A stretch of 64,000 bases of DNA from Blastococcus sp. CT_GayMR19 (GTDB lineage: Bacteria; Actinomycetota; Actinomycetes; Mycobacteriales; Geodermatophilaceae). Under the pieces are notes generated by a model. It was given only the letters and a program-made list of their open reading frames with translations, did no database searches and was not told where the DNA came from. The stretch spans positions 62,001 through 126,000 of the forward strand of contig NZ_SPQL01000001.1 of the NCBI RefSeq assembly GCF_004570385.1, given 5' to 3'. This document shows, in pieces, positions 10,370 to 13,408 of the stretch (positions are counted from its first letter, which is position 1; each line of letters begins with the position of its first letter). The position numbers and the translations under genes were made by a program.

Positions 10370-13258
10370 TCAGCCGAGGACGAAGTTCACCAGCCGGCCA
10401 GGGACGGCGACGACGCGGCGCACGGTGGCGCCCTCCAGCCAGCCCGCGATCTTCTCGTCCCCGCGGGCAGCCGCCTCCAGGGCTGCGGCGCCGGCGTCGG
10501 CCGGCACGGTGACCTGCGACCGCACCTTGCCGTTGACCTGCACGGCGACCTGGACGGTGTCCTCCACGAGCCACTGCTCGTCGGCGACCGGGAACGGCGC
10601 CCAGGCCAGTGACTCCCCGTGGCCCAGCCGCGACCAGAGTTCCTCGGCGAGGTGCGGGGCCAGCGGGGCGACCATCAGCACCAGCGGCTCCACCACGGAC
10701 CGAGGGACCGGTGACGAGGCGCCGTAGGTCGCCGTCAGGTGGTTGGTCAGCTCGGTGACCCGCGCGATCGCGATGTTGAACCGGAGCGTGGTGAACCCGT
10801 CGCGGACACCGGCGATCGTCCGGTGCAGCGCGCGCAGCGTCTCCTCGCCGGGCGCGTCTTCCGAGGCCCGGACGGCGCCGGTCCCCTCGTCGACGACCAC
10901 GCGCCAGATCCGCGCCAGCAGCCGCTGCGAGCCGACGACGGCCTTGGTCTCCCAGGGGCGGGACTGGTCCAGCGGGCCCGTCGACATCTCGTAGACCCGG
11001 AAGGTGTCGGCCCCGTACGCGCCGATCATCTCGTCGGGCGTGACCATGTTCTTCAGGCTCTTGCCGATCTTCCCGTACTCGCGGTTGACCGGCTTGCCCT
11101 CGTAGACGAACTGCCCGTCCTTCTCGACGACGTCTGCCGCGGGCACGTAGAACCCGCGCTCGTCGGTGTAGGCGTAGGCCGAGATGTAGCCCTGGTTGAC
11201 CAGCCGGCGGAAGGGCTCCTCGCTGGAGACGTGGCCCAGGTCGTGCAGCACCTTGTGCCAGAAGCGGGCGTACAGCAGGTGCAGGACGGCGTGCTCGACA
11301 CCGCCGACGTAGAGGTCGACGCCGCCGACGTCGCCGGGCGAGCGCGGACCCAGCCAGTACCGCTCCAGCTCCGGATCGACCATCTGCGTGTCGTCGGAGG
11401 GGTCCAGGTAGCGCAGGTGGTACCAGCACGACCCCGCCCAGTTGGGCATCGTGTTGGTCTCCCGGCGGTACTTCTTCGGCCCGTCGCCGAGGTCGAGCTC
11501 CACCGTCGTCCACTCGGTGGCGCGTGACAGCGGAGGCTCGGGGGCCGAGTCGGCGTCGTCGTCGGGGAACGTCTTGGGTGAGTAGTCGTCGACCTCGGGC
11601 AGCAGCACGGGCAGCATCGAGTCCGGCACGGCGATCGGCAGGTCGTTCTCGTCGTAGACGATCGGGAACGGCTCACCCCAGTAGCGCTGCCGGCTGAACA
11701 GCCAGTCGCGCAGCTTGTAGGTCGTGGTCGCCTCGCCGTGGCCATGGGCGACCAGCCACTCGGTGATCGTGGCGATGGCGGTGGCCTTGTCCAGCCCGTT
11801 CAGCGAGATCTCGTCGTTGGCCGAGTTGATCATCGGGCCGGTGCCCGTGTAGGCGCCGCCCTCGAAGGCCTCCGGCGGCTGCACGGTCCGGATCACCGGC
11901 AGCCCGAACTTGTCCCCGAACTCGAAGTCGCGGACGTCCTCGCCGGGCACCGCCATGATCGCGCCGGTGCCGTAGCCCATCAGCACGTAGTCGGCGACGA
12001 AGACGGGCAGCTCGCGGCCGTTCACCGGGTTCACGGCGAACGCGCCCGTCCAGACGCCGGTCTTGTCGCGGCCCTCGGTCTGGCGCTCCAGCTCCGAGCG
12101 GCGGGAGGCCTCCCGCCGGTAGGCGGCCACCGCCTCGGCGGGCGTGGCGGCCCCGCCGGTCCAGCGGGGATCGACCTCGGAGGGCCAGGCCGACGCGGTC
12201 AGCGCGTCGACCAGCGGGTGCTCCGGGGCCACGACCATGTAGGTGGCCCCGAACAGCGTGTCGGGCCGGGTGGTGAAGACCTCGATGGTCTCGGCCCCGC
12301 AGGAGAAGCCGATCCGCGCGCCGGTCGAGCGGCCGATCCAGTTGCGCTGCATCTGCTTCAGCGACTCGGGCCAGTCCATCCGGTCCAGGTCGCCCAGCAG
12401 GCGGTCGGCGTAGGCGGTGATCCGCATCATCCACTGGGTGAGCGGGCGCCGGAAGACCGGGAAGTTGCCCCGCTCGGAGCGCCCGTCGGCCGTGACCTCC
12501 TCGTTGGAGAGCACCGTCCCCAGGCCGGGGCACCAGTTGACGGGAGCCTGGTTCAGGTAGGCCAGCCGGTGGGCGTCGACCACCCTCTGCCGCGCGACCT
12601 CGTCCAGCTCCGTCCAGGGCAGCCCGGAGGGATTGGTGCCGGGGGCGGGGACGCGCGTGCCGGCGTCCAGCTCGGCGACCAGTTCCTCGATCGGGCGCGC
12701 CCGACCGGCATCAGGGTCGAACCAGGCGCCGAAGATCTGCAGGAAGATCCACTGGGTCCACTTGTAGTAGCCCGGGTCGATCGTCGCGAAGGTGCGCCGC
12801 GTGTCGTGGTCGACCCCGAGGCGGCGCAGCTGCGCGGCGATGGCCGCGATGTTCGCCTCGGTCGTGACCCGCGGGTGCTGCCCGGTCTGGACGGCGTACT
12901 GCTCGGCGGGCAGGCCGAAGGCGTCGTACCCCATGGGGTGCAGGACGTTGTGCCCGTCCATCCGCAGGAACCGGCTGGTGACGTCGGTGCCCAGGTAGCC
13001 CAGGGGGTGCCCGACGTGCAGCCCGGCGCCCGAGGGGTACGGGAACATGTCCATCAGGAACGCCTTGGGCCGGTCGGCCACCCGCTCGAAGCCCTCGCTC
13101 AGCGGGCCGACGGGGTTCGGCGTGTGGAACGTGCCCTCCGCGTCCCACCGGTCCTGCCAGGCGAGCTCGATCTGCTGGGCCAACGCCGGCGTGTACCGGT
13201 GCGGCGGGGCGCCGTCGGCCGTCGCGTCGGCGCTCGGCTGGCTGGCCGTCTGGCTCAT
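10370..13258 (-). CDS. leuS: Leucyl-tRNA synthetase
   Basis: Class I synthetase charging tRNA-Leu (962 residues). The HIGH-type motif appears as HVGH within [16 protein letters not shown] near residue 77. The CP1 editing domain follows, with [20 protein letters not shown]. The KMSKS-type motif is KIGKSLKNM, then the anticodon-binding and C-terminal regions. The start was set at ATG 13258 (MSQTASQPS); upstream in-frame codons would read into the attenuator terminator. Expression is probably controlled by the leader peptide and terminator at 13307-13395: the transcript must read through a U-tract terminator before reaching this start. Confidence 0.97.
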
Positions 13259-13306
13259 GGTCGGTGCTCCCGGGTCATCTGGTGCGCTCGTACCGGCGGC
13301 GGGCAG

Positions 13307-13332
13307 AAAAAAACCCCTCACGCGTGGAGGGG
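13307..13332 (-). terminator. Intrinsic terminator (attenuator) in the leuS leader
   Basis: Read on the minus strand, cccctc and gaggg(g) arms form a 6-bp stem with a 7-nt loop, followed by seven consecutive T. It lies upstream of leuS and in the leuS direction, not at the end of any gene. This is the only hairpin in the window with a long T-run, which argues for regulated early termination. Confidence 0.85.
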
Positions 13333-13335
13333 TCG

Positions 13336-13368
13336 CCGTGCTGCGAGAAGCGTCTCAGGTCAGCACGG
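13336..13368 (-). promoter_or_regulatory. Leader hairpin (pause/anti-terminator element) before leuS
   Basis: Exact 8-bp arms (ccgtgctg at 13336-13343 and cagcacgg at 13361-13368) lie 17 nt apart. The upstream arm, in the transcribed direction, covers the last two codons and stop of the leader peptide. A ribosome that finishes or stalls there would change folding of this element relative to the terminator. The alternative anti-terminator pairing is not obvious by eye. Confidence 0.65.
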
Positions 13369-13395
13369 CCGGAGAAGCAGGAGCCGGCCGGTCAC
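13360..13395 (-). CDS. leuS leader peptide with four consecutive Leu codons
   Basis: An 11-codon frame starting GTG reads (M)TGRLLLLRPC then TGA. Four adjacent leucine codons (ctc ctg ctt ctc), two of them rare for this GC-rich genome in ending or form, sit just upstream of a hairpin and terminator before leuS. The start lies seven bases after a TAGGAT box, so it is predicted leaderless. Classical attenuation of leuS has been predicted in some Streptomyces; this layout fits that model. The peptide itself needs no function; stalling on Leu codons when charged tRNA-Leu is scarce would be the sensor. Confidence 0.8.
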   Translation of the reverse strand: MTGRLLLLRPC

Positions 13396-13402
13396 GGGCC
13401 CG

Positions 13403-13408
13403 ATCCTA
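13403..13408 (-). promoter_or_regulatory. -10 box for the leuS leader transcript
   Basis: TAGGAT on the minus strand ends seven bases before the leader-peptide GTG. No clear -35 hexamer is seen. Confidence 0.6.

Follow-up and report, generated by a model that had tools for sequence, protein, structure and literature searches.

Is the short leader ahead of leuS in Blastococcus sp. CT_GayMR19 an attenuator, and if so, which part of its RNA responds to the position of the ribosome? The locus lies in a stretch of 64,000 nucleotides, referred to here as the window. A preliminary description of the letters alone had called it a complete Leu-codon attenuator: a leaderless 11-codon peptide with four consecutive Leu codons, and a terminator with a U-tract 49 bases before leuS. 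Its coordinates and its leader were borne out on the minus strand, where the locus has the following parts.

10370..13258, minus strand: leuS, leucyl-tRNA synthetase, 962 aa (NCBIfam leuS_bact, 878 bits, cut-off 548)
13403..13408, minus strand: -10 promoter element TAGGAT, 7 nt upstream of the leader GTG (13395-13393)
13360..13395, minus strand: predicted leaderless leader ORF, GTG to TGA, peptide VTGRLLLLRPC-stop, with homologous peptides in the family
13372..13383, minus strand: four consecutive Leu control codons, CTC CTG CTT CTC, the third being the conserved rare CTT
13361..13369, minus strand: hairpin A 5' arm, GCCGTGCTG, including the first two stop-codon bases, with compensatory changes
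13335..13343, minus strand: hairpin A 3' arm, CAGCACGGC, its end separated by 1 nt from the terminator stem
13313..13333, minus strand: intrinsic terminator stem-loop, ACCCCTC-CACGCGT-GAGGGGT, stem 13333-13327 / 13319-13313
13307..13313, minus strand: terminator T-run, seven T, the first paired within the stem
13259..13306, minus strand: read-through segment up to leuS, with an SD-like GGGAG at 13271-13267

Along the minus strand from 13395 to 13360, the leader codons are GTG ACC GGC CGG CTC CTG CTT CTC CGG CCG TGC TGA, with the stop codon TGA at 13362-13360. Hairpin A has 9 bp (13369-13335, minus strand), its 5' arm overlapping the leader stop codon, and the terminator stem has 8 pairs when one G-T pair is counted. 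The terminator had been placed correctly, but the distance from its last T to the leuS ATG at 13258 is 48 bases, one fewer than claimed. One terminator-like site occurred in the 1.2 kb searched, against a shuffle mean of 0.1, and by the criteria used the leuS leader is the only leaderless-type small ORF in the 64-kb window with a terminator after it. A single-sequence fold of the leader was uninformative (z of -1.0). Rfam covariance models gave nothing at gathering level over the window and seven matches at the leuS locus, all at chance level, on which ground a T-box riboswitch or another Rfam family was rejected for the leader.

Conservation of the unit in Geodermatophilaceae

Of 57 genomes from the family, 56 yielded a leuS orthologue; a C-terminal fragment from one genome was left out. 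The -10 element, leader, hairpin A and terminator are all present upstream of leuS in 56 of 56, and because of this conservation the leader, hairpin A and terminator before leuS are confirmed as a real observation. Loss of the Leu codons or the terminator in close relatives, which the preliminary description had named among the results that would refute it, was thus looked for and not seen in these 56 leuS regions. A TAnnnT box lies 6-7 nt ahead of the GTG or ATG in all 56, and all 56 leaders encode 10-13 residues with two to four consecutive Leu, mostly three, the peptides ending in PC, PR, PY or CR. A strict T-tail scan was passed by 53 of the 56 terminators, the other three having an interrupted T-run or a stem mismatch. 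Candidatus Blastococcus massiliensis and Modestobacter caceresii, both Geodermatophilaceae, have records that match two of the 56 loci without a difference over 250 nt.

Both sides have changed in four of ten hairpin A pairs and in one of seven terminator pairs of the family alignment, and the counts of pairs or cells changed on both sides were matched by none of 500 shuffles. Taken as a measure of covariation, further pair types in the same alignment did not rise above shuffles (250 of 500 as high).

Range across the class

A covariance model built from the 56 family elements was used to follow the unit beyond the family. The class-wide leuS search gave a match in 142 of 148 genomes, from which 68 loci were scanned (29 best hits and 39 N-terminal matches); the scan omitted the LeuS type of about 830 residues, though some of these carry the element. 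The model found the unit upstream of leuS in 35 of the 68. The 33 loci without it by the model include all 11 from one family of the same order (f2), and at least one of the 33 is an artefact, as locus L067 begins at a contig edge and the element lies on another contig of the same genome. For f2, none of the 11 leuS loci and none of the 20 genomes listed carries the element, three of its genomes giving only weak model matches (E about 0.03). No leaderless small ORF was found in the 26 element-less class loci with a recognised LeuS N-terminus.

Whole-genome scans with the same model gave matches in 74 of 101 genomes of the order at E<=0.1 (65 with the cut-off set to E<=0.001) and in 120 of 296 genomes and 52 of 106 genera of the class at E<=0.001. 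When best matches were fetched, leuS lay in the fetched stretch for 36 of 37, the remaining one being near a contig end. Among 19 mostly weak or second matches, 6 precede leuS and 13 do not, so the genome-scan counts are upper figures for leuS, and at least 9 of the 120 owe their inclusion to the leader of ilvB, cimA or another gene.

Named genomes were also scanned independently with a pattern of hairpin and terminator only, with no leader, which returned at least 118 loci. Among the matches listed, leuS follows in 108 of the 110 assessable loci (of at least 118), eight loci lack downstream sequence, two lie elsewhere without leuS or a Leu leader, and LL is found in frame to a stop in 116 of 118. 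The 80 loci listed, of at least 118, come from Streptomyces, Micromonospora, Amycolatopsis, Jiangella, Blastococcus, Geodermatophilus and others. Across the class, both partners differ in seven of 17 pairs, a count reached by 0 of 500 shuffles, though in an alignment fitted to the model, which favours covariation.

The LeuS proteins of the class fall into two length types, of about 960 and 830 residues, and either can carry the element. One genome (G320) has two leuS genes of different type (L288 and L289), each with an LLL leader, a hairpin and a terminator.

Control codons and spacing

All distinct finder matches among the loci collected form a set of 193 elements. The finder required a -10 element 5-8 nt before the start, an LL, IL or LP pair, a terminator, and a hairpin arm 0-4 nt from the terminator; spacer and stop-in-arm figures for this set are thus partly by construction, and about 76 of the elements are Streptomyces-type and not independent. 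The Leu run has three codons in 160 elements, four in 23 and two in 10. The four consecutive Leu codons claimed for the window are indeed there, but the fourth is unconserved and a run of three is the rule. The last Leu codon of the run is CTT in 161 of the 193 (CTC in 28, CTG in 4), and CTT accounts for 273 of the 592 Leu codons within runs compared with 13 of 2396 in leuS genes; in the window copy CTT is the third of the four. Rare control codons would suit a sensor of tRNA charging.

Arm 1 of hairpin A lies 8 nt from the last Leu codon in 152 of the 193 elements. The loop of hairpin A is 11-38 nt long, with a conservation of 0.1-0.7 bits in its first ten positions. A spacing count free of finder selection comes from the 56 family leaders, three of which have no passing terminator and four no perfect 8-bp stem: a perfect stem of at least 8 bp lies 0-1 nt from the terminator in 49 of the 53 leaders with a passing terminator. 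Against this, a stem lies at 0-2 nt in 2 of 63 other terminators in the named loci, the terminator seed being TT for the family count, slightly looser than the TTT for the background. At the level of sequence, then, the leader, its control codons, hairpin A, the spacing and the terminator are established.

Hairpin A is predicted to follow the position of the ribosome

To ask what responds to the ribosome, we folded 193 leaders with the RNA masked to the front edge of a ribosome, 13 nt from the first A-site codon base. Hairpin A formed at P>0.5 in 193 of 193 leaders with the ribosome on the first Leu codon, and in none of the 193 once it had reached the stop codon. Varying the footprint from 10 to 16 nt left the first-Leu count at 173-193 of 193 and the stop count at 0 of 193. 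When the ribosome sat on the last Leu codon, the hairpin was only part-formed, at a mean of 0.38 for the 13-nt footprint and 0.01 at 16 nt, and the count swung from 176 to 0 over the same footprint range. The terminator had a mean P of 0.95-0.99 in every ribosome state and fell below 0.5 in 0-6 of the 193. In these calculations hairpin A is the only element that follows ribosome position. As the terminator is folded in every computed state, a model without steric effects predicts no switch.

The general parts of an attenuator are both present, namely a leader with Leu codons and an intrinsic terminator between it and leuS, and, as in the 1:2 hairpin of the trp type, the leader stop codon lies within arm 1 of hairpin A. 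The overlapping antiterminator that the trp type requires was not found among the 193 elements by thermodynamic folding without pseudoknots. On a stall at the Leu codons, a classical trp-type switch would have either the hairpin A 3' arm or some other segment pair with the 5' arm of the terminator, perhaps kinetically or through a pseudoknot or triplex beyond the calculation. Such a switch would agree with Seliverstov et al. 2005, who described the leuS leaders of Streptomyces as attenuators of the classical kind, with antiterminator hairpins (PMC1262725), and with the ilvB-II motif of Corynebacterium, for which an antiterminator involving the P1 loop has been proposed (PMC10272879). However, pairing of arm 2 with the terminator region at P>0.5 occurred in 0, 0, 2 and 1 of 193 leaders with no ribosome and with the ribosome on the first Leu codon, on the last Leu codon and at the stop, respectively. 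Before the 3' arm of the terminator is made, its 5' arm was tied up upstream in only 1 (first Leu) and 5 (last Leu) of the 193, the states in which such a switch would need it, compared with 20 with no ribosome and 37 at the stop. We consider a trp-type switch unlikely here. The word "complete" in its classical sense accordingly overstates the preliminary case, since no structure competing with the terminator was found, and the hairpin that responds to ribosome position had been overlooked.

A proposed steric model for the switch

Attenuation of leuS is very likely. For how it works, we favour ribosome-mediated, leucine-responsive transcription attenuation with hairpin A acting sterically, a model we regard as probable, if with some reserve. 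Transcription would start at the leader GTG, as the spacing of the -10 element and the report on S. lividans suggest, and a ribosome would translate the 11 codons. With ample Leu-tRNA it would reach the stop codon, and, since this codon lies inside the 5' arm of hairpin A, a ribosome there should prevent the hairpin. In the absence of hairpin A, the terminator would fold and transcription end ahead of leuS. With scarce Leu-tRNA the ribosome would stall at the first Leu codons, immediately 5' of hairpin A, which could then form right at the foot of the terminator, 0-2 nt away. The abutting stem and a closing terminator should not fit together in the RNA polymerase exit channel, so that the terminator would fail and leuS would be made. 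Hairpin A itself would thus be the antiterminator, acting by its bulk and not by pairing with the terminator, and it may in addition keep the polymerase waiting for the ribosome.

The presence of hairpin A on a Leu stall and its loss at the stop would give the response a physiologically sensible sign. A role of hairpin A as antiterminator is suggested because its loop varies in length and sequence while the distance to the terminator stays fixed. A terminator hairpin probably enters the exit channel, and in phage P7 termination is reported to be blocked when that channel is filled (PMC6624301); a rigid stem set against the terminator foot should therefore act alike. No RNA precedent for this step was found in the portions of the literature covered. 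In the stop state the 5' arm of the terminator is paired upstream in 37 elements, 27 of them Streptomyces-type, and such pairing would count against the steric model, as do the part-formed hairpin A at the last Leu codon and the 33 of 68 class loci that lack the element by the model.

Hairpin A might instead be only the partner of a tandem terminator or a pause hairpin, with polymerase pausing and the closeness of the ribosome governing read-through, possibly with the opposite sign. Double adjacent hairpins have been described as terminators (PMC8355165), and a pause-like signature is present, the first YG step of the terminator loop lying 10 nt from hairpin A in 169 of the 193 elements, with G at -10 in 159. 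The consensus E. coli pause is -10G/-1Y/+1G with a hairpin 10-13 nt upstream (PMC10268239), to which the YG step and hairpin distance of the leuS elements come close. In the window copy, however, the loop is one base longer, which puts YG at 11 nt and A at -10, and a hairpin A that aided termination would shut leuS off under leucine shortage, which makes poor sense. Taken as the whole explanation, this reading seems improbable, somewhat more so than the trp type. A pause role for hairpin A is compatible with the steric explanation and may be part of it.

We give a distinctly smaller chance to a leader that acts mostly after transcription, through pairing of the Leu codons with the SD box, re-initiation or mRNA stability, as discussed for the LEU element of actinobacterial leuA. 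In its favour, pairing between the transcript 5' end and the stretch that follows the U-tract is stronger in the family than in all of 2000 permutations. Resolved by clade, though, the gain is slight or absent in two of eight family clades (g7 and g9), and permutation gives no support in the other clades permuted: in three other groups 170, 571 and 179 of 1000 permutations were as good. Streptomyces-type rows did worse than shuffled 5' ends, while a MAG-type group did better. A pairing of Leu codons with the SD box as in the LEU element was rejected, own pairs being no better than permuted ones (1095 of 2000 as good), and a post-transcriptional role would leave the conserved terminator unexplained.

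In the window, 13395-13376 at the transcript 5' end can pair with 13306-13277 after the U-tract. Such a pairing could hide the leaderless start codon on the read-through mRNA.

Since hairpins form readily in GC-rich 5' regions, one might suspect that the terminator and the Leu run arose by chance, or that the terminator is simply a constitutive one. The presence of the unit in 56 of 56 family members, the 108 of 110 assessable pattern loci (among the matches listed), the compensatory changes and the CTT bias refute a chance origin and leave this reading, the constitutive form included, next to no probability.

A layout shared with ilvB and cimA leaders

Several of the weak model matches are leaders of other branched-chain genes. 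In the genome of the window, the ilvB (acetolactate synthase) leader ends in LVVA-stop, and a 13-bp hairpin abuts an intrinsic terminator (L274, G000:C7:47255-47324). A cimA gene of this genome, whose product shares 64% identity with a protein scoring above the citramalate synthase cut-off, has the leader MHMTGSIIIS-stop, with three ATC codons, and again a hairpin abutting a terminator (L368, G000:C16:4700-5300).

We surveyed 30 loci each for ilvB and cimA across the class with a strict, bulge-free stem finder. For cimA, a terminator was found in 26 of the 30 loci (from 59 genomes); 13 loci had a scorable hairpin within 15 nt, 11 of these at 0-1 nt, and 13 had no hairpin. Similar cimA leaders, containing LIIG, LIIT or LLIIGRRAG, occur in other class members. 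For ilvB, a terminator was found in 8 of 30 loci, and of seven hairpins three were at 0-1 nt; because the bulge-free finder missed the terminator before the window genome's own ilvB, its ilvB negatives mean little.

These layouts suggest a distinct actinomycete form of attenuation, in which an abutting hairpin would bar closure of the terminator in the exit channel and the ribosome on the leader would decide, the device being common to leuS (Leu), ilvB (Leu-Val-Val) and cimA (Ile-Ile-Ile). We put this forward tentatively, with less credence than the steric model for leuS itself. Codon substitutions upstream of S. coelicolor ilvBNC, which left regulation unaffected (cited in PMC1262725), speak against it and lowered our estimate slightly. 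The same source calls the mode of ilvB regulation not clear and that of some leucine operons unknown. If true, a shared device could explain the seemingly missing components of actinobacterial branched-chain leaders, and how these leaders regulate despite such gaps becomes a testable question.

Comparison with known systems

Attenuators of leuS were predicted in S. avermitilis and S. coelicolor by Seliverstov et al. 2005 (PMC1262725), and in S. lividans TK24 the leader LeuL2, MRAVRLLLSEPR, is reported to be leaderless and followed by a hairpin and uridines (PMC8079986). The Streptomyces LeuL2 shares with the window element the same gene, a leader with a Leu run that is leaderless (by prediction in the window copy), a hairpin and a U stretch. 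The exact LeuL2 peptide, MRAVRLLLSEPR, is encoded by 47 of the 193 elements, named Streptomyces records included, and the family-built model gives scores of 54.6-67.2 bits to 12 class loci whose leader is of the Streptomyces MRAV type. The window unit is a Geodermatophilaceae member of the leuS attenuator known from Streptomyces, and this attenuator is present in much of the class.

The preliminary interpretation is therefore partly supported. It was right in kind, as a Leu-codon attenuator ahead of leuS with a predicted leaderless start outside Streptomyces is supported by our analysis. It was wrong on novelty, having set a leaderless start and compactness against Streptomyces, since the S. 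lividans leuS leader is homologous and is itself reported to lack a leader and to be followed by a hairpin and a stretch of uridines (PMC8079986); and without hairpin A it was incomplete. As a leaderless leuS attenuator was already known in Streptomyces, the window element adds new range, and we found no report of one outside Streptomyces in the open-access literature searched.

The portions of PMC1262725 and PMC8079986 that describe the Streptomyces leader do not mention a range across the class, a bias to CTT, a stop codon in hairpin A, the abutting spacing or the lack of an overlapping antiterminator. New here are the CTT bias at the last Leu codon, the finding of no overlapping antiterminator, and hairpin A as the predicted ribosome-dependent element. 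What was in 2005 a prediction for two Streptomyces species becomes a probable regulator found conserved in much of the class, with a candidate switch hairpin named.

Two other actinobacterial leaders invite comparison. In Corynebacterium ilvB-II a uORF runs over a stem, P1, and is followed by a terminator stem, P2, with uridines (PMC10272879). This layout resembles the leuS element, but different amino acids are involved and an antiterminator between P2 and the P1 loop has been proposed (PMC10272879). The LEU element of leuA is likewise actinobacterial with a Leu-codon leader; unlike the leuS element it forms a pseudoknot in which the SD box pairs with Leu codons, and no attenuator terminator is described for it in the available portions of PMC1262725 and PMC8079986.

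The leuS element appears to be an attenuation variant with a non-overlapping, abutting hairpin as antiterminator. The classical attenuators trp, his, leu and pheST of enterobacteria combine control codons, a leader peptide, a terminator and ribosome position as the sensor. The leuS element has the same parts, with ribosome position as its predicted sensor, but, unlike in the enterobacterial type, an overlapping antiterminator was not found. An untranslated leader of the trp type is OFF. If the steric model is right, an untranslated leuS leader would be ON, the opposite of the trp type, and attenuation would have a simple design rule, with predictions of sign unlike those for trp.
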